NCBI GenBank assembly: GCA_003557545.1
Contig: PWOD01000098.1
Span: 1 to 23,089, forward strand
Length of the DNA stretch: 23,089 nucleotides
Direction: 5' to 3'
From: a bacterium
GTDB taxonomy: Bacteria > T1Sed10-126
A program made the translations under genes and the position numbers. Shown here one piece after another: positions 9,696 through 23,089 of this stretch. Positions within the stretch are counted from its first letter, which is position 1. Each line of letters starts with the position of its first letter. The notes beneath the pieces were generated by a model that was given only the letters and a program-made list of their open reading frames with translations, searched no databases and had not been told where the DNA came from.

Positions 9696-9763
9696 TTTAA
9701 GCTTCAAGAATAAACTTTTAACCCTGAATGATCGACTATTATAATCGGTTGGTGACCCACATA

Positions 9764-11032
9764 ATGCTTTCTAAAATTGCCGAACAACTGGCCAGTAAAC
9801 AACATGCTATCCAGGATTTCATCCGTCAACAGATAACCCTCCATCAGCCACCCCTCTATAGTTCTTTTGACCTACGCTGCAACGGATTCAAAGCTGTCGC
9901 GGTTGATCCTAATGTTTTTCCGGCGGGCTTCAATAATATCTGTTCTCACGGCGTCCAGCTGGCCGCCAACCTGTTGCTCCAGATAATCTTTAAACGCTAT
10001 GGTACGACCATAAAACATATTGCCCTTTATCCTGAATATCACACAAAAAATCTCTATTATCTGGAAAATATCTATTCTCTCCAAAAACTTCTCAACAGTG
10101 CCGGTTTTCCAACCATAATTGCCTCTGACAATCCCCGAATCAAATCTTGGCCTGCCCGGCTGAAAACTGCCGAGAACAACCATATTACAATACACAAACT
10201 TGACCGAAAAAATGACAGGCTCTATGCCGATCAGAAGAAACTCGATCTGCTCATCACTAACAATGATTTTTCACAACCGCCGAAAGATATCTTCGACAAC
10301 CTCTCGACACCGGTCGCACCACCGGTCAAGATGGGCTGGTACAATCGCTCTAAATTCTCCCATTTTGTCAAACAAAAGAAAATCCTCACCGAGCTGGCTG
10401 AAATCGCCGCTATCGATCCCTGGTTTTTACTGGCTGAAACCCGGCTGGAAAAAGCTGTAGATTTTAAAACCCAGGAAGGATTCGACAGAGTTGCTGACGC
10501 CATCGATGAGATTCTCGACAAATCCTCCCGAAAATACCGTGAACTGGATATCGACGAACCCTGCAGGGTGTTTGTTAAAAGTGACCGGGGTACCTATGGC
10601 ATGAACGTCTATTCATTTGAATCAGGGGAACAGTTTCTCAATATCAATCGTAATCGGCGGGATAGTTTCCTGCGCCGCAAAGGGGGAGAAAAAAACACCA
10701 GTGTGATTATTCAAGAGGGTATCCGAACCCGTGATCGAGTCAAAGGTCTGGTTGCCGAACCGGTCCTTTATTGTCTTGAGCACACCCCCATATCAGGCTT
10801 TTTAAGGACCAATAAAAAGCAGTCTGATTTTGAAAACCTTAACGCCCGAGGGATGGGATTTTCACCTGAAAATCTCTGCCCGATGTTTATTGACCGGGCC
10901 GAAAAAAATGTCGGAAGCAATCTTCAGCAGCATCAGATAGAACTATACAAACTTCTCTCAACCTGTGGGGCTATCGCCTGCGGGATGGAGATCAGCGAGT
11001 TAACCGGCGAAACCTCGGAATCCGCCGGTTAA
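9764..11032 (+). CDS. gshA: Glutamate--cysteine ligase, Acidithiobacillus (gshA_ferroox) type
   Basis: The enzyme joins glutamate and cysteine to form gamma-glutamylcysteine. The protein carries the signature region of this third GshA family, with DLRCNGFKAVAVDPNVFPAGF near residues 35-56, and the segment FVKSDRGTYGMNV, which suits ATP-grasp-like nucleotide binding. I place the start at ATG 9764 (422 residues) because GGTGA lies 8 nt upstream; an ATG at 9728 would add 12 residues but has no ribosome site. It stands alone with its own promoter, and no glutathione synthetase (gshB) is in the window, so the final thiol could be gamma-glutamylcysteine rather than glutathione. Its stop codon overlaps that of the opposing RAM gene. 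The family is best known from proteobacteria, so transfer is possible. Confidence 0.85.
   Translation: MLSKIAEQLASKQHAIQDFIRQQITLHQPPLYSSFDLRCNGFKAVAVDPNVFPAGFNNICSHGVQLAANLLLQIIFKRYGTTIKHIALYPEYHTKNLYYLENIYSLQKLLNSAGFPTIIASDNPRIKSWPARLKTAENNHITIHKLDRKNDRLYADQKKLDLLITNNDFSQPPKDIFDNLSTPVAPPVKMGWYNRSKFSHFVKQKKILTELAEIAAIDPWFLLAETRLEKAVDFKTQEGFDRVADAIDEILDKSSRKYRELDIDEPCRVFVKSDRGTYGMNVYSFESGEQFLNINRNRRDSFLRRKGGEKNTSVIIQEGIRTRDRVKGLVAEPVLYCLEHTPISGFLRTNKKQSDFENLNARGMGFSPENLCPMFIDRAEKNVGSNLQQHQIELYKLLSTCGAIACGMEISELTGETSESAG
11000..11032. terminator. Perfect 10-bp inverted repeat between converging genes
   Basis: TTAACCGGCG (11000-11009) and CGCCGGTTAA (11023-11032) form a perfect 10-bp stem around a 13-nt loop. 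It lies within the 3' end of the ligase gene and covers both stop codons. It could end transcription in both directions or protect both 3' ends, but there is no T-run on either side, so intrinsic termination is uncertain. Confidence 0.5.
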
Positions 11033-16992: not shown

Positions 16993-18390
16993 CTAACGGA
17001 TCTTCTCAATAAAATCAGCCAGTTTTTTCTTGGTAATTCGTGGATTGGTAACTGTACATGGCCCCCCAATACAACCGTTTTCACAGGCCATTCCTTCAAT
17101 AAAATCAACGTCGTTAACCAGCTTCCCAAGTCGCCGTTCTAACCCACTGTCTATTCCGTCAACCTTATCCACATCAAACTCCTCTGGAGCAGCCAGAAAA
17201 TTTTGCACGGCTTCTGTCAATCCCCCGGATTTTGCAAATAGCCACCCCCGGTAATCACCCGCCATATCAGGGACAGTCTCCTCACATAAAGATACATCGA
17301 TATCCCTGGCGGCCAGCATACTGGCAAGTTCTTCATAGGTCAGAACATAATCAATATTACTTTCCTCCGCCTCCTGTTTCTTACTTATGCAGGGGCCAAT
17401 AAAGACCAGCAGTTCATCCGACTTTTTATCCGCTCCCGCTACTTTCATTGGACTGGGAGTTAACGAAATATTTTCTCTAAAATCCGGCAAAATCTTTTCA
17501 ATATAATAAACCCAGGACGGGCAGCAGGAGGACAGTAGCTTTCCCTTTTTCCCTTCCAATTCTCGAGCTTCCTGCTCGGCGGTTATAGCGGCGTAACTGG
17601 CCAGTTCATACACCTTATCAAATCCAATCTGCTTGAGAGCAGTAGTGAGTTCAGGAACTGTTGCTTTCACCGAAAACTGTGCCACAATCGACGGAGCTAA
17701 CAGCGCGGTCAGCTTTTTCCCCTCGGTCAACTCCCGAATCACCTTTAACATATCAGAACGCTCGACCACCGCCCCGAACGGACAGCCCGTTAAACAGCGG
17801 CCACATAAGATACATCGATCATAATCTATTCTCGCAATACCCTGCTCATCAGTCTGAATAGCATCAACCGGACAGGCATTCTCGCAGGGTCTATTCACCT
17901 GAATAATTGCATTAAAAGGACAGTTTTTCACACACAGACCACATTCTATACACTCATCTTGATCAATTTTAGCCCTGCCATTTTCAATTGTGATAACATC
18001 TTTCGGGCAGTTCAAAGCGCAGGGGTGGGCCAGACAGTGCTGGCAGGCCTCAGTCACATAATAACGCTGCTGAGGACAGCCGTTACAGGCCTCTTCAAGA
18101 ACCGATAATATCGGTAAATTGTCGGTTTGTCCCTCAAAAAAATCATCATATGTTTCAGCCCAGGAAACATTCTTATATTTCTTATGATCAAGATTTAATA
18201 CAATTTTAATACGATCATTTGTTATCTCCCGATCATGGTACACACAACATCTAAACGGTTGTGCTCTATCCGGTGAGATTTTTTCAGAAATATCTCGGAT
18301 CTCTTCTCTCAGAGTTCCCTCAAACATCTTTTTTGAAAGAAGCGTCAGTATTTTCCGTTTAATTATCTCAATTTCAGTTATATAAGCCAT
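16993..18390 (-). CDS. [FeFe]-hydrogenase, group B type, single subunit
   Basis: A cytosolic iron-sulfur enzyme of 465 residues expected to make or oxidise H2. An N-terminal part (with RCCVYHDRE near residues 47-55) leads to several [4Fe-4S] motifs: CQHCLAHPCALNCP (117-129), CIECGLCVKNCP (147-158) and CILCGRCLTGCP (193-204), with an extra Cys pair PCENACP between. The H-cluster domain is complete: SSCCPSW (Cys289 for proton transfer, Cys290 as ligand), GPCISKK (Cys334) and EGMACENGC (Cys436, Cys440). This layout matches the group B enzymes of anaerobes, whose physiological partner is not settled; ferredoxin is likely. Its ATG follows an AAGGA site and lies 6 bp after the [2Fe-2S] gene. Maturation genes hydE, hydF and hydG are not in the window. 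Confidence 0.88.
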   Translation of the reverse strand: MAYITEIEIIKRKILTLLSKKMFEGTLREEIRDISEKISPDRAQPFRCCVYHDREITNDRIKIVLNLDHKKYKNVSWAETYDDFFEGQTDNLPILSVLEEACNGCPQQRYYVTEACQHCLAHPCALNCPKDVITIENGRAKIDQDECIECGLCVKNCPFNAIIQVNRPCENACPVDAIQTDEQGIARIDYDRCILCGRCLTGCPFGAVVERSDMLKVIRELTEGKKLTALLAPSIVAQFSVKATVPELTTALKQIGFDKVYELASYAAITAEQEARELEGKKGKLLSSCCPSWVYYIEKILPDFRENISLTPSPMKVAGADKKSDELLVFIGPCISKKQEAEESNIDYVLTYEELASMLAARDIDVSLCEETVPDMAGDYRGWLFAKSGGLTEAVQNFLAAPEEFDVDKVDGIDSGLERRLGKLVNDVDFIEGMACENGCIGGPCTVTNPRITKKKLADFIEKIR

Positions 18391-18396
18391 AAATCT

Positions 18397-18630
18397 TTAT
18401 CCTTGCTCGAGTATTTTTTTAAATTTTTCAACTGTAACTCGATCATAAATTTCGCCATCAACCTCAACAATAGGGGCCTCATAATCAGCCCTGTTGCAAT
18501 AATCCAGACAACTGGGTGTTTCCAGCTCAAAATCCCGGCCATTTTTCTCACAATGTTCTTCAAAATAACTGTACAGGTCCGATCCACCCATCAGATGACA
18601 GCAGGTTCCTAAACATATCCGTATCTTCAT
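18397..18630 (-). CDS. [2Fe-2S] thioredoxin-like ferredoxin (NuoE/HydC-like), second copy
   Basis: A 77-residue protein with the thioredoxin-like [2Fe-2S] fold as found in the C-terminal part of NuoE and in small hydrogenase-associated ferredoxins. Ligands are CLGTCC (Cys6 and Cys11, spaced by four) and CLDYC (Cys-x3-Cys), followed by the conserved PIVEVDGEIYDRVT strands. It starts at ATG 18630 with AAGGAG 9 nt upstream and lies 6 bp before the group B hydrogenase, so it is a natural electron carrier or small subunit for it. A 79-bp gap with a 12-bp palindrome separates it from the phosphatase gene. It differs clearly in sequence from the other 77-residue protein at the head of the operon. 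Confidence 0.88.
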   Translation of the reverse strand: MKIRICLGTCCHLMGGSDLYSYFEEHCEKNGRDFELETPSCLDYCNRADYEAPIVEVDGEIYDRVTVEKFKKILEQG

Positions 18631-18690
18631 CTTTACCCTCTCCTTGTCTGGCTAATTATCACCGTACAGCTTCCAATCCGGCTTAGTATA

Positions 18691-18702
18691 AGGGCCGGCC
18701 CT
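18691..18702. repeat. Perfect 12-bp palindrome inside the hydrogenase operon
   Basis: AGGGCCGGCCCT is a fully self-complementary site in the only sizeable gap (79 bp) of the hydrogenase locus, 8 bp after the phosphatase stop. It could be a regulator site or a processing or attenuation element. It has no loop and no T-run, so a terminator is unlikely. Confidence 0.4.
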
Positions 18703-18709
18703 GACATGA

Positions 18710-19894
18710 TCAAATATATTCTATATCAACTTTCTTCAAATATTTATCCTGCAGCAAACCAGCCAGCTTTTTCACCACATTTTTACGCAGCCCCAGGTCC
18801 TCGGGGATATGTGGATTTTGATGAACCTCATTGATTTTAGTTCCCACAACAAACTTAATATAATCTGAATTTTTAAGATAATCATATAATTTATAGCCCG
18901 GATGATCTGGATCAACCACAGCTGGTTCGCCGGACTCCAAAAACTCAATCGCCCGACTCATAGTCAGAATCCCCTCAGTCACCAGATCAATCCCCTGAAT
19001 CTCTGAATCTGGAGGTATATCCTTATGAAAACTATTCAGATTCACCTTGATATCTTCATCCGCCAACCTGCTATAAATATTGCTGGTTGTCCCGCCGCAA
19101 ATTATTTTTTTGCCACTGAACCGATCAACCCTCTGCTTAATCTTATAATCATTATCTCTGTCCACAGGTGGACCTGTAAGCAATAGCGTGCGACGCGGAC
19201 GGCGGAAATAAAAACAGGCTGTTGTGATATCATCTTTTGCCTTTTTACCATCAATTTTATAGGCTTCTTTTACTAAAAAACTTGCCAGATCCCGGGCCGA
19301 TATATTCACACTTTCAGCTATCTTCCGGCCAACTGTAGAAACTATTGCCTCCTCTGACCAGCCCAACGAAAAATCTTCCCTGCCAACTCCAGCCTGGCTT
19401 ATGCCATCTGTGAAAACCACAAGCCGATCCCCCAGCTCTATGTTGAATTCTACATAATAGAGGGTTTGTGAAGCCCCAATCGGATTGTCCATGCGAATTT
19501 TCTTTTTATCGAGCGATATTCTTTTTTCGTCACGAAACAGCATAAAGCCAGGATTATCAAATTCCATGATCTCAACCCTGTCCTTTTGCAGATCAATATC
19601 GATGATTGTAAAGGTAGAATAGCTGATTTTTCGAACTTTACACTCGGGCAGGGTCTTCATAATAGTTTCAGCAGTATTTTTTATATCAACTGAATTAGCC
19701 GTTAAATTCAAAGATATAGTAGTCGTCAACGTTGCCAGAACATTGGCTTTAATTCCACTCCCCAGCCCATCCGATAAAACAGATACAATCCGGTCACTCC
19801 TATCGAGCTTTTTCGAAAGAAAAACATCACCCGGAACCTGCTTGCTATGCTTGGCTATCTGAGAATGATCAACCTCAACAAAAAAATTGGACAT
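18710..19894 (-). CDS. SpoIIE-type PP2C serine phosphatase linked to HydS
   Basis: A 394-residue phosphatase. The N-terminal 230 residues form a PP2C/SpoIIE domain with the metal-binding aspartates in VLSDGLGSG (Asp42), VVFTDGISQAG (Asp163) and AKDDITTACF (Asp221/222). The C-terminal 160 residues form a separate domain of unknown role, with GKKIICGGTTSNIYSRL. There is no membrane segment or sensory domain of its own, so input probably comes from HydS, whose stop is only 2 bp upstream. By family knowledge, such enzymes dephosphorylate anti-anti-sigma proteins or other Ser phosphoproteins; no kinase or STAS protein is encoded in the window, so the target lies elsewhere. Confidence 0.88.
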   Translation of the reverse strand: MSNFFVEVDHSQIAKHSKQVPGDVFLSKKLDRSDRIVSVLSDGLGSGIKANVLATLTTTISLNLTANSVDIKNTAETIMKTLPECKVRKISYSTFTIIDIDLQKDRVEIMEFDNPGFMLFRDEKRISLDKKKIRMDNPIGASQTLYYVEFNIELGDRLVVFTDGISQAGVGREDFSLGWSEEAIVSTVGRKIAESVNISARDLASFLVKEAYKIDGKKAKDDITTACFYFRRPRRTLLLTGPPVDRDNDYKIKQRVDRFSGKKIICGGTTSNIYSRLADEDIKVNLNSFHKDIPPDSEIQGIDLVTEGILTMSRAIEFLESGEPAVVDPDHPGYKLYDYLKNSDYIKFVVGTKINEVHQNPHIPEDLGLRKNVVKKLAGLLQDKYLKKVDIEYI

Positions 19895-19896
19895 CG

Positions 19897-21603
19897 TTAT
19901 TCCCGGTCCTTAAAGGCCTCAATCACGGAGTTCATAAGAACTTCTGTTTCCGAGGCATTCTCGCCGAGAAGATAAGCAATTTCCTGGACCATATTGAGGT
20001 TTTTACTGATAACTTCTTCCGCTTTTCTGACCACCTGTTCACGTTTTATCGAAGGTTCTGTTATGTCCTGGCAAATAAAACCAACACTTTTACCGGCTTC
20101 TATGACAAAAGCCGAATAAAAGAGAACCCTGTCCTGAAATTCCAACTCCTCCCCGATTATATCTTCATCAGTTTCCAACACTTCTTCAAAAATATGATGG
20201 AACGGGACTAATTTTTTAAGATCAGCAGTTTTCATCCCGGGAACTGTGTCAAAAATCTCAACGATATCTTCTCCCAGTAAACTGGCAAATCTCCGGTTAC
20301 ATTCAACAACCCGCATCTCTTTATCGGCGATTACCACTCCGGAAGGCATTGTTTTTAGCAGGGCGTTGGCAGTTTTCTGAGCTTTATTTCTCATATATGA
20401 CACACACATATCAGTCTCCGCTTTTCCACCTAAAAGTGCTTCGGCAAAATCTCGACAGGCATTATATCCACAACCCCCACAGTTCAGCTCATCGGCTTCA
20501 TTATCCTTACCGATTCTCGATAAAGCCTCACTAATTTCCCGGGCCGAATAACTTTCCACCTCAACCGGTTCAACATCATAATCAAAGCTAACGTCCAGGT
20601 TACTATCCAGTCGAATTCTCTCCGGTTGATAGGTTGAGTTTGATATAACCGACAGCTTCTTTGAAACAATATTACTGCCAGAATTAGCAACCGGACCGTT
20701 CACACAACCACCACTGCAGGCAAGCAACTCGATAAAAAGCTTTCTACTGAACTCTCTGCTGGCCAGGCTGTCCAGGATATCCTGTACCGGTTTCATCCCG
20801 GAAAAACTCATGAAATTAAGATCATTCACGGCACAGTTTTCCTTGACCCCCGCAATCATTCCACCATCCATCGGATAAAGCCGGCCATTTTTCGCACTGT
20901 ACGGGATAAAATCATCCTCCGGAGATGGTTTTATTCTGTCCGATTTAATTCCATTTCTTTTTAACCACTCTCTTAAATCATTAAACGTGAGACAGACATC
21001 AAAAGCCCGGTAGCGTTCAGCTTCAATCTTTTTCGCAAGACAGGGTCCAATAAATACAATGCCTGTATCTTCCCCATAATTAGCCTTCAAAAACTTTGCA
21101 TGGGCTACAACCGGTGTCATAACATTGGCCAGATTTGAACGCAGTTGAGGTTTATATTTTCTTATATATTCGACCACCGAAGGACAGGCCGTCGAGATAA
21201 TCAGCCGGTCACCCGGCTGATTAAACTCCCTGTGGATTGCTGACGATACACGTTCCGCTCCAAGAGCTGTTTCTGAAACCCCATGAAATCCTAGCTTTTT
21301 CAGGGCTGCCACTAACCGTACTGTCTCATCTTTGTTAAATTCACTTATAAAAGATGGTGCCAGCGAAACAATTACTTTTTCCCTCTCCTTAATCAACTGG
21401 CGGGCCTCTTCAACGTCCGAACGTACATTTTTAGAGTTGTTCGGACACTCCAGGATACACTCCCCGCAGAGGATGCATCTTTCGGACATAACACTCGCAT
21501 GTTTATCTTCAATCCTGATCGCCTTCACCGGACAGTTACGTACACATTTAAAACAGTCCTGACAATCAGTTGCCTCGGTATAAATCGGATATTCCCTGAT
21601 CAT
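19897..21603 (-). CDS. hydS: Sensory [FeFe]-hydrogenase with PAS domain (HydS, group C3 type)
   Basis: A 568-residue cytosolic protein predicted to sense H2 or redox state. Order: two [4Fe-4S] motifs (CQDCFKCVRNCP at 14-25; CILCGECILECP at 43-54); H-cluster domain with STACPS (Cys140), GPCLAKK (Cys188) and ACSGGC (Cys296, Cys300); a further Fe-S motif Cx2Cx4Cx16C (Cys375, 378, 383, 400); a PAS domain at about 410-510; and a C-terminal helical tail. Ala139 replaces the proton-transfer Cys of catalytic enzymes, as in the characterised HydS of Thermotoga maritima, which gives low activity and suits sensing. The ATG overlaps the upstream [2Fe-2S] gene by 4 bp, and the phosphatase follows after 2 bp, the mark of phosphatase-linked group C3. 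Confidence 0.92.
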   Translation of the reverse strand: MIREYPIYTEATDCQDCFKCVRNCPVKAIRIEDKHASVMSERCILCGECILECPNNSKNVRSDVEEARQLIKEREKVIVSLAPSFISEFNKDETVRLVAALKKLGFHGVSETALGAERVSSAIHREFNQPGDRLIISTACPSVVEYIRKYKPQLRSNLANVMTPVVAHAKFLKANYGEDTGIVFIGPCLAKKIEAERYRAFDVCLTFNDLREWLKRNGIKSDRIKPSPEDDFIPYSAKNGRLYPMDGGMIAGVKENCAVNDLNFMSFSGMKPVQDILDSLASREFSRKLFIELLACSGGCVNGPVANSGSNIVSKKLSVISNSTYQPERIRLDSNLDVSFDYDVEPVEVESYSAREISEALSRIGKDNEADELNCGGCGYNACRDFAEALLGGKAETDMCVSYMRNKAQKTANALLKTMPSGVVIADKEMRVVECNRRFASLLGEDIVEIFDTVPGMKTADLKKLVPFHHIFEEVLETDEDIIGEELEFQDRVLFYSAFVIEAGKSVGFICQDITEPSIKREQVVRKAEEVISKNLNMVQEIAYLLGENASETEVLMNSVIEAFKDRE

Positions 21604-21833
21604 AACTCTTCACCTAATATATCACTCATCTTCTCCTCGGTAACATCTGAAAATTTTCTTCCATTTATTCTGATATGCGGGCCATTCATACAATCATCCT
21701 CACATAGACAACCGGAAATTTTAACTTCCCTATCTTTTCCCTCAAAATAGTTTTTGATCATCGTAATATTCTTATTATTACCCCTTGTAAAACAAGAACT
21801 TCCCATGCACAAAACAATTTCTTCGGCCGACAT
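21600..21833 (-). CDS. [2Fe-2S] thioredoxin-like ferredoxin (NuoE-like), first copy
   Basis: A 77-residue small iron-sulfur protein heading the hydrogenase operon. Likely ligands are Cys9 and Cys14 in LCMGSSC and the CEDDC pair in SGCLCEDDCMNGP, as in the thioredoxin-like [2Fe-2S] fold; it also has the end motif PHIRINGRKFSDVTEEK. It probably passes electrons to or from HydS, with which it overlaps by 4 bp (ATGA). The start at ATG 21833 has GAGGTG about 8 nt upstream. One extra Cys beside the second pair may allow alternative ligation. Confidence 0.88.
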   Translation of the reverse strand: MSAEEIVLCMGSSCFTRGNNKNITMIKNYFEGKDREVKISGCLCEDDCMNGPHIRINGRKFSDVTEEKMSDILGEEL

Positions 21834-21918: not shown

Positions 21919-22281
21919 AGGGCTTACCAGGCCCTGACAGCCCCATCAAAGATTCTTATTTGGTATTAAAACCCAAAACCGGCTTATACCGGTTCTCTAA
22001 ACTACTCTATTCAGACTTTCTTTGCGGAATAATTTCAAATCTATAAAATTACGGTATGGTATCTTATTTAGACCCGATTTAAAAGTGAACTTACAACAAA
22101 CAACCATTATGCTGCCGCTACTTACTGGCCATTTAACCTGGGATCGCCTGTCCGGAACAACAATCCGGCAAACAATCCTGAAGACGACGAAACAATTTCC
22201 CTGCCTAACTCGCCGAACATAGGGCATCTTAATCCCTTGTTCATAAAGCCTCCTGCTGAATCAACTCAGGGCCTCATGAGC
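21919..22281. other. Intergenic region between selO and the hydrogenase operon without a recognised gene
   Basis: I see no supported gene here. Short open frames on both strands (for example 21997-22227 minus and 22022-22222 plus) have no ribosome site and no recognisable motif. The region holds small hairpins: AGGGC/GCCCT at 21919-21935 and AACCGG/CCGGTT at 21977-21994. Confidence 0.6.
21977..21994 (-). terminator. Possible intrinsic terminator after selO
   Basis: On the minus strand, AACCGG and CCGGTT form a 6-bp stem with a 6-nt loop, followed by TTTTGGGTTTT (counting the last stem Ts). It lies about 300 bp beyond the selO stop, so it might end that transcript before the hydrogenase operon. 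The stem is short and the T-run broken. Confidence 0.3.
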
Positions 22282-22303
22282 AACCTGATTAATCGCTCAG
22301 GTT
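22282..22303 (-). terminator. 7-bp inverted repeat overlapping the selO stop codon
   Basis: AACCTGA and TCAGGTT pair perfectly around an 8-nt loop; the stop codon of selO (22297-22299) lies in the stem. No T-run follows, so it may stabilise the 3' end rather than terminate. Confidence 0.3.
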
Positions 22304-23089
22304 CCACAAAACGTTACCTTCACTCGCCGCTCAGACGTGGGCGGGCGTAGAAATTCTTCGTAACCTTCAGGCCAGTCAAACGGACTGGTAACAGCCTCGA
22401 ATAGCTCGTGAAACTTTTCGTAGTCACCCTGCTCCTCCGCCTGTTCAAGAGCCTCGTTAACCTGGCAGTTGCGTGGAATCACCAGGGGATTAGCTTCGCC
22501 CATATAGATCGCAATCTCGGACACTGATCGGTTCTGCTCATCAAGACGTTCACGCCATCGCTCCAGCCAGTTATCAAAGCTAGGTGGAAAGGTGAAAAAA
22601 GCACCAACTTCCCGCCCCTCTGGAACCGGTGCAGGGTTGGCCAGCTCCGCAAGCCGCCGAAATGCCAGGGTGAAGTCAACCTTACCTTGTTCCATTAAAT
22701 CGAATAAATTATCGACCAGCTTGTCATCCTCCCGCCGTAGCTCATCAAACCCTAATTTCTTCGCAAGTCCCTCATTGTACGCCCTTTGAAAACGATTCCC
22801 AAGCTCCTTCATGATCATTTCCAGTTCGGAGGCCATATCACTGTCGGCCCCGGCCATACTCATCAGTGCCCCCGCGAAACGCCACAGGTTCCAACCGATA
22901 ATTGAGGATTGGTTACTGTAAGCGTAGCGTCCCCACCGGTCGATCGAACTGTAAACCGTATTAGGATCATATTCATTCATAAACGCACAAGGACCGTAAT
23001 CAATCGTTTCCCCCGACAGCAGGGTATTATCGGTATTCATAACCCCGTGAATGAATCCAAGCAACTGCCACCGGGCAATCAGCCGGGCC
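22297..23089 (-). CDS. selO: Protein adenylyltransferase SelO (YdiU family), 3' part
   Basis: SelO is a pseudokinase-fold enzyme that attaches AMP to Ser, Thr or Tyr of proteins, linked to redox stress. The frame is open to the right edge; the first visible residues are ARLIARWQLLGFIHG, so the N-terminal half lies outside. Visible family motifs are GVMNTDNT (active-site Asn/Asp), TIDYGPCAFMNEYDP, DRWGRYAYSNQ and NPLVIPRNCQVNEAL. The protein ends VTFCGT: the third residue from the end is Cys, the position that is selenocysteine in the animal enzyme and Cys in bacteria. It is transcribed alone towards the hydrogenase operon, 460 bp away. Confidence 0.95.
   Translation of the reverse strand, partial: ARLIARWQLLGFIHGVMNTDNTLLSGETIDYGPCAFMNEYDPNTVYSSIDRWGRYAYSNQSSIIGWNLWRFAGALMSMAGADSDMASELEMIMKELGNRFQRAYNEGLAKKLGFDELRREDDKLVDNLFDLMEQGKVDFTLAFRRLAELANPAPVPEGREVGAFFTFPPSFDNWLERWRERLDEQNRSVSEIAIYMGEANPLVIPRNCQVNEALEQAEEQGDYEKFHELFEAVTSPFDWPEGYEEFLRPPTSERRVKVTFCGT

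Follow-up and report, generated by a model that had tools for sequence, protein, structure and literature searches.

A phosphatase-linked sensory hydrogenase operon that probably couples H2 sensing to a group B [FeFe] hydrogenase

The mechanism of bacterial H2 sensing by [FeFe] hydrogenases is still unproven. An operon that encodes a sensory hydrogenase together with a possible effector was located on the minus strand (16993–21833) of the window, the whole 23,089-nucleotide stretch of DNA analysed here, and the question was whether its group B hydrogenase is controlled by H2 through protein dephosphorylation, as the first-pass annotation had proposed. The locus is probably the same kind of operon as hfsABCD of Thermoanaerobacterium, with phosphatase-linked (C3-type) H2 sensing coupled to a fermentative group B hydrogenase.

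The five annotated open reading frames were all recovered by an ORF check of the window, on the minus strand and with the same ends. The first gene, trxS (21600–21833), encoded a thioredoxin-like [2Fe-2S] protein of 77 residues (PF01257, 5.7e-07; CX4C...CX3C) and overlapped by 4 nt with the HydS gene (19897–21603; 568 residues). The gene for a PP2C/SpoIIE-type serine phosphatase (18710–19894; 394 residues; PF07228, 1.2e-14) started 2 nt after HydS, in agreement with the earlier description of the pair as nearly fused. After a gap of 79 nt, trxB (18397–18630) encoded a second thioredoxin-like [2Fe-2S] protein (77 residues; PF01257, 3.8e-11; CX4C...CX3C), followed at 6 nt by the gene for a monomeric group B [FeFe] hydrogenase (16993–18390; 465 residues). 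The 79-nt gap could hold a separate promoter. When it was compared with the longer gap in the related genome G001, no convincing similarity was found, and a promoter and terminator scan gave little more than was expected from shuffled sequence. A 21-nt element, GTCTAAATAAGATACCATACC (22053–22073, minus strand), located about 220 nt before trxS, was a candidate control site. The chance expectation for it in the window was 0, and it also preceded this operon in G001 (locus L011, 10560–10580). It was not found near the HydABC genes of the same genome.

HydS was composed of a 2×[4Fe-4S] ferredoxin domain, an H-cluster domain, a C-terminal FeS region, a PAS domain, and a C-terminal helix (PF02906, 3.1e-49; PF04060, 6.5e-10; PAS_8, 1.2e-06). 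The H-cluster domain with C-terminal FeS and PAS regions, and the Ser/Thr phosphatase gene alongside, assign HydS by domains and neighbouring gene to the C3-type, phosphatase-linked sensory hydrogenases of group C. The PAS_8 match and the alignment to CpI bore out the annotated PAS domain and the replacement of the proton-transfer cysteine by Ala139 (codon 21187–21189, minus strand), which aligned with CpI C299 and TmHydS A131; the C299A variant of CpI (6gly) has TSACPGW at that place. Residue 139 was alanine in all 31 group-B-linked HydS proteins with a residue there and variable in those linked to HydABC. The second-sphere positions of the H-cluster, Ala139, Gly186, and Leu294, were uniform in group-B-linked HydS, and the H-cluster cysteines were all kept in every PP2C-linked copy aligned, which together suggests selection on H-cluster chemistry. 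Leu294, the norm in this sub-group, occupied the position of CpI M497. The M497L variant of CpI lost proper [2Fe] insertion (PMC10055695), and this residue thus counts against the reading of HydS as an H2 sensor. H2 did not reduce the C-terminal cluster of TamHydS, a group D sensor (PMC13104023), so that a relay through the FeS part of HydS is unclear.

The 465-residue hydrogenase scored 496.2 bits against TIGR04105 (FeFe_hydrog_B1; cut-off 450) and is assigned by this score to group B, as first annotated. Its motifs were complete (L1, SSCCPSW; L2, GPCISKKQE; L3, EGMACENGCIGGPC), the proton-transfer cysteine was retained in L1, and the H-cluster cysteines were invariant among seven relatives. 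The relatives of the preceding trxB product were NuoE/HydC C-terminal domains. The annotation had left the role of group B open, which is outdated: H2-evolving roles are reported, both for group B in gut bacteria, where it is described as the main hydrogenase for H2 evolution (PMC12578642), and for HfsD, which is probably the chief source of H2 in T. saccharolyticum (PMC8924675).

The five-gene order was exact in G001, with non-homologous flanks and identities of 55% for trxS, 81% for HydS, and 79% for the group B hydrogenase. A genome co-occurrence search found this five-gene order in 29 other loci, G001 and about 28 further ones (28 in all without a duplicate record), in Spirochaetota, Bacteroidota, Riflebacteria, Melainabacteria, and others. 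The linkage is therefore not due to chance, and its conservation in relatives, on which the annotation depended, was confirmed. In all loci with this order, the HydS and phosphatase genes overlapped or were at most 22 nt apart. The phosphatase tree showed at least nine switches of catalytic partner between group B and HydABC. Group B was the partner in about one-third of the loci examined; together with the precedents of hfsABCD and of Vallitalea, this does not bear out the earlier view of group B as an unusual partner.

The C-terminal helix of HydS (residues 525–563, containing QEIAYLLGENASETE; 19915–20031, minus strand) carried a sequence of the form QEIAxLLGExxAE, which was common to all phosphatase-linked sensors, including PAS-only ones that have no H-cluster; the LGE was invariant. 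A profile of this tail matched only sensors adjoining this phosphatase among 6977 ORFs searched, and a Ser/Thr phosphatase adjoined HydS in all relatives with the tail. The helix is probably the contact segment for the phosphatase. In six loci, HydS was replaced by a PAS-only protein without an H-cluster, and FeS-PAS-PAS forms, also without an H-cluster, were present in L049 and L055. The upstream [2Fe-2S] gene was kept in all six PAS-only loci, which speaks against its product being a simple electron carrier and weakens the annotated idea of a separate [2Fe-2S] carrier for each hydrogenase.

The phosphatase matched SpoIIE/RsbU structures, best SpoIIE and other PP2C phosphatases, and was aligned with SpoIIE over 215 residues with an rmsd of 2.5 (Z 24.6). 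The metal-site residues Gly22, Asp23, Asp42, Asp163, Asp221, and Asp222 were invariant among relatives, and the metal-binding aspartates and the PP2C fold place it among the SpoIIE/RsbU phosphatases. Its C-terminal alpha/beta domain (residues 232–394; 18713–19201, minus strand; pLDDT 91) had no match in Pfam or PDB sequence searches and none in Foldseek at E 0.001. It most resembled the alpha/beta domain of NuoG and molybdopterin enzymes (Z 10.3), a likeness of the model that may reflect no more than a common arrangement. As a universal antagonist of the phosphatase, a HATPase_c_2 kinase that clusters with a second hydrogenase-like protein (L161–L165) was rejected. Of the 25 genomes with the phosphatase, 10 had clusters of this type, as did 8 of the 54 genomes lacking it, and this genome and G001 had none; such a kinase would thus be a partner in some lineages at most.

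For the signal, the contact with the phosphatase, the substrate, and the direction of control, the following mechanism is proposed. HydS would react slowly and reversibly with H2 at its H-cluster, without the usual proton-transfer cysteine, and its state would pass via the FeS and PAS part to the C-terminal helix. The helix would contact the adjacent phosphatase and set its activity, and the phosphatase would dephosphorylate Ser/Thr residues of a putative target protein. The outcome would tune how much of the ferredoxin-linked, H2-evolving group B enzyme is present or how active it is, and probably also other fermentation outlets.

HydS could instead sense the general redox state (ferredoxin, NADH, or FeS status), fed by the [2Fe-2S] protein, with H2 turnover incidental. 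This is rather unlikely given the kept H-cluster cysteines and the uniform active-site surroundings in group-B-linked copies, although the sensors without an H-cluster that fill the same slot, PAS-only with the [2Fe-2S] gene retained or FeS-PAS-PAS, would fit it, and HfsB was described as possibly responsive to redox potential (PMC11837493). Downstream, the phosphatase could dephosphorylate a STAS protein and free a sigma factor from its anti-sigma kinase, as in an Rsb-type partner switch. Its SpoIIE/RsbU-like domain points that way, and the STAS and anti-sigma kinase partners looked for after the first annotation were present in the genome, but this HATPase_c_2 kinase and STAS protein adjoined a different, response-regulator-SpoIIE phosphatase on another contig (C174). 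Neither a STAS nor a kinase gene, nor another phosphoprotein partner, was found among the operon neighbours. The STAS domain was also absent at E 0.001 from four near-complete genomes that carry the HydS-linked phosphatase (G142, G279, G350, and G078), so that the classical partner switch was rejected as the general target, and it is improbable here.

Direct action of the phosphatase on a hydrogenase or an enzyme such as AdhE, and not on a transcription regulator, is equally doubtful; we know of no phosphosite on hydrogenases or AdhE, which counts against it. The phosphatase was tightly linked to whichever catalytic hydrogenase was present, group B or HydABC, as such action might imply, but these partners exchanged freely, so that direct action would call for a substrate shared between two different enzymes. 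Deletion of hfsA or hfsB in T. saccharolyticum raised NADH-ADH but not NADH-ALDH activity (PMC5707799), which favours direct action since a change of the adhE transcript alone does not explain it; however, transcript changes were reported too (PMC5707799; PMC10838669).

The preferred reading, an H2-sensing operon coupled to group B, may be part of something wider. Tentatively, a widespread plug-in system is possible, in which one PP2C phosphatase with its own undescribed C-terminal domain would take interchangeable sensors (H-cluster HydS, FeS-PAS, or PAS alone) via the common helix, be inserted beside group B or HydABC, and act on a non-STAS substrate. The at least nine partner switches, the shared sensor tail, the [2Fe-2S] gene beside PAS-only sensors, and the STAS-free genomes were added by this analysis; the shared tail and the natural swaps of sensor and partner open direct tests of signalling. 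Group B contributes a major part of the H2 in guts, and its control therefore matters for the balance of H2 and methane. Many anaerobic bacteria share the gene set, which corresponds to an operon known to steer fermentation.

Among known systems, TmHydS of Thermotoga maritima has the electron-bifurcating HydABC as its catalytic partner, unlike the group B enzyme here. TmHydS is likewise a PAS-bearing HydS with alanine at the C299 position and is thought to regulate a hydrogenase of its own operon (PMC10055695), whereas it has Ser267 at the position of Leu294. A [2Fe-2S] protein is encoded in a T. maritima iron-hydrogenase operon (PMC10055695 and its reference list). In Ruminococcus albus 7, HydS and a ferredoxin-dependent, non-bifurcating hydrogenase, HydA2, are similarly encoded in one transcriptional unit (PMC10838669), but that unit is plasmid-borne, and an adjoining Ser/Thr kinase was proposed as the relay (PMC5707799), while the present operon has no kinase gene. 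A search for literature on this cluster in termite Treponema gave nothing useful. In Vallitalea guaymasensis L81, genes assigned by HydDB to C3 and B lie two genes apart (peg.96–98), a comparable pairing (PMC6163223).

Also close is hfsABCD, which has been studied by deletion: HfsB is its HydS, HfsC its serine phosphatase, and HfsD a hydrogenase (PMC11837493, PMC5707799) that has been named as group B (PMC8924675). By description, both operons combine a PAS-bearing HydS, a serine phosphatase, and a ferredoxin-linked group B hydrogenase, and the genomes of T. saccharolyticum and T. thermosaccharolyticum also encode a bifurcating Hyd at a separate place, as here. HfsA was described as aligning poorly with known proteins, whereas the first gene here encodes a clear [2Fe-2S] thioredoxin-like protein, and another gene of this sort lies before that for group B, unlike in hfsABCD. 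Deletion of hfsB gave higher hydrogenase activity and adhE expression (PMC5707799, PMC11837493), and the R. albus HydA2 transcript dropped 90-fold when a partner consumed H2 (PMC10838669); the sign of control thus differs between the two. With genes for HydS, a serine phosphatase, and a group B enzyme running in one direction, the present operon is of an already known type, the same kind as hfsABCD.

The five ORFs proposed for the operon in the first-pass annotation were all present on the minus strand at window 16993–21833: trxS (21600–21833), HydS (19897–21603), the phosphatase PP2C (18710–19894), trxB (18397–18630), and the group B hydrogenase (16993–18390). The trxS and HydS genes overlapped by 4 nt, and gaps of 2, 79, and 6 nt separated HydS from the phosphatase, the phosphatase from trxB, and trxB from the group B gene, respectively. 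HydS was composed of ferredoxin, H-cluster, C-terminal FeS, and PAS domains, and its Ala139, correctly assigned before, aligned with Cys299 of CpI in an alignment with the C299A variant. The earlier identities of the 465-aa protein as a group B hydrogenase (496 bits against a curated cut-off of 450) and of the 394-aa protein as a PP2C phosphatase also held, the latter being of the SpoIIE/RsbU type by profile, residues, and predicted fold. A 21-nt element upstream of the operon (window 22053–22073; L011 10560–10580) was conserved between two genera whose flanks were otherwise dissimilar. A SelO/YdiU protein (window 22297–23064), truncated by the contig end, was encoded directly upstream of the operon, and a glutamate-cysteine ligase of the gshA_ferroox type (window 9728–11032) was on the strand opposite to most window genes.

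The genome sample contained a single other genome of the same family, G001, and the remaining genomes were kin at the domain level only. The five-gene order of G001 was identical, with 55–81% identity, and the flanking genes were unrelated; therefore, the unit was delimited. The phosphatase search of 386 diverse genomes gave matches in 25. Co-occurrence was conserved across genomes: a true HydS in the order trxS-HydS-PP2C-trxB-group B occurred in 29 loci, that of G001 among them, as counted from neighbour annotation and 80 named loci, leaving out L059 (PAS-only sensor) from a list of 30 and including L047 and L092, which are the same Riflebacteria contig. Since the 80 named loci were chosen as best matches to the window phosphatase, the group B proportion is a biased estimate. 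Named hosts included Gracilinema, Treponema, Sphaerochaeta, Marispirochaeta, Carboxylicivirga, and Butyricimonas, and the order was also found in Riflebacteria, one Melainabacteria MAG, and one Alphaproteobacteria MAG. The median HydS–PP2C spacing in loci with this order was −4 nt. At L045 5584–8595 (genome G345), an insertion of ~1.3 kb with a transposase-like frame broke the HydS gene at the L3 motif, and the four remaining operon genes looked intact, a natural sensor knock-out.

Elsewhere among the named loci, HydS-PP2C adjoined HydCBA or was near HydF-like/HydG-like genes. On a quick tree of 109 phosphatases with SH-aLRT support only, the partner changed between group B and HydABC at least nine times; the AB label of L059 on this tree came from a HydB match of only 26 bits, and its actual partner is group B. 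The Riflebacteria contig L047 carried HydCBA, trxS-HydS-PP2C, trxB-group B, and a second HydS-PP2C consecutively.

The sensor was also exchanged. In six loci, a PAS protein of ~170–184 aa without H-cluster or FeS domain occupied the HydS slot, and group B was kept in two of them (L052 and L059). The sensors of L049 and L055 were FeS-PAS-PAS proteins without an H-cluster. HydS, PAS-only, and FeS-PAS-PAS sensors alike ended in a common C-terminal helix, QEIAxLLGExxAE. A profile of this segment was built from the named set alone and searched against the 6977 ORFs of all loci. Every match was a sensor adjoining a window-type phosphatase, if the split HydS of L074, the fused phosphatase of L108, and short loci that duplicate the same genes are counted as adjoining. 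Outside the training set, 26 of 26 matches in annotated loci adjoined the phosphatase, and the histidine-kinase-linked HydS proteins of Bacteroidales loci gave no match. From this sequence distribution, the simplest reading is that the helix would form the phosphatase contact. Each hydrogenase had been proposed to have its own [2Fe-2S] carrier; the [2Fe-2S] genes were indeed present, but the upstream one still preceded the PAS-only sensor in all six loci. Because of this retention, the upstream [2Fe-2S] protein is suggested to be part of the signalling unit, with a role beyond carrying electrons for the H-cluster of HydS.

In group-B-linked HydS, Ala139 and Gly186 were each found in 31 of the 31 proteins with a residue there and Leu294 in 30 of 31, whereas HydABC-linked HydS were variable at these positions (Asn, Ala, Ser; Phe, Leu, Met, Ser). 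The Leu294 position is Ser267 in TmHydS of Thermotoga maritima, and S267M altered the H2 range of the expected sensor response (PMC10055695); by analogy, Leu294 therefore predicts an H2 set-point unlike that of TmHydS.

Residues 232–394 of the phosphatase were predicted at pLDDT 91 to form an alpha/beta domain, in which GPP, GGTT-like, PP, and TEG motifs are near-invariant, and matched no Pfam model. Structurally, the domain came closest to an alpha/beta domain found in NuoG and in molybdopterin enzymes (Z 10.3, r.m.s.d. 3.3, 120 residues), a likeness that could reflect a common Rossmann-like arrangement.

The source draft genome (2.15 Mb, 92% complete; the window is its complete contig C129) encoded two SpoIIE phosphatases. 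The second, on contig C174, was fused to a response regulator and adjoined a STAS protein and a HATPase_c_2 kinase. These genes (L158 3670–5774; kinase-like 175 aa, STAS 120 aa, response-regulator-SpoIIE 400 aa) are a compact, self-contained partner-switch set. Thus, the STAS and anti-sigma kinase partners that the first-pass annotation suggested looking for were present, but beside the other SpoIIE phosphatase. In G142, G279, and G350, the HydS-linked phosphatase was the only SpoIIE protein detected, and a STAS domain search of these genomes and G078 gave no match; this rules out a STAS protein as the substrate shared by all of these phosphatases. A possible antagonist kinase module was the conserved cluster of L161–L165, DRTGG, HATPase_c_2 kinase-like, 441-aa [FeFe]-hydrogenase-like FeS protein, DRTGG, and PHP, found in some genomes with the HydS-linked phosphatase; in G078 and G350, NuoE/HydB-like genes lie close to it. 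Its kinase-like gene was commoner with the phosphatase (10/25 genomes) than without it (8/54), in counts that ignore kinship, and was absent from the source genome.

A PF02906 search of the source genome gave one further [FeFe] hydrogenase only, HydA of a HydBAC set on contig C208, which adjoined HydF-like and HydG-like genes (named by inspection). Therefore, a bifurcating-type enzyme is present without phosphatase linkage. The L1 motif of this HydA (L001 820–2583) was TSCSPGW, as in the HydA1 chain of 7q4v, rather than TSCCP.

HydDB group C3 was defined as phosphatase-linked, with its role undetermined (PMC5037454). As in the window operon, hfsABCD combines HydS (HfsB), a serine phosphatase (HfsC), and HfsD (PMC11837493), the last assigned to group B (PMC8924675). 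Strains lacking hfsA or hfsB had higher ethanol yield and adhE expression, and loss of hfsB increased hydrogenase activity (PMC5707799). The R. albus HydA2 transcript fell 90-fold when the bacterium was grown together with an H2-consuming partner (PMC10838669), and gut H2 production is driven by group B (PMC12578642). In Vallitalea, C3 and B hydrogenase genes lie two apart (PMC6163223), a closeness that resembles the window operon. A literature search found no description of the common sensor tail, the swaps, or STAS-free genomes with the phosphatase. Given the C3, hfsABCD, R. albus, and Vallitalea precedents, the window operon is an already known kind of system, here in a poorly sampled lineage, to which the common sensor tail, the sensor and partner swaps, and the STAS-free genomes are useful additions.
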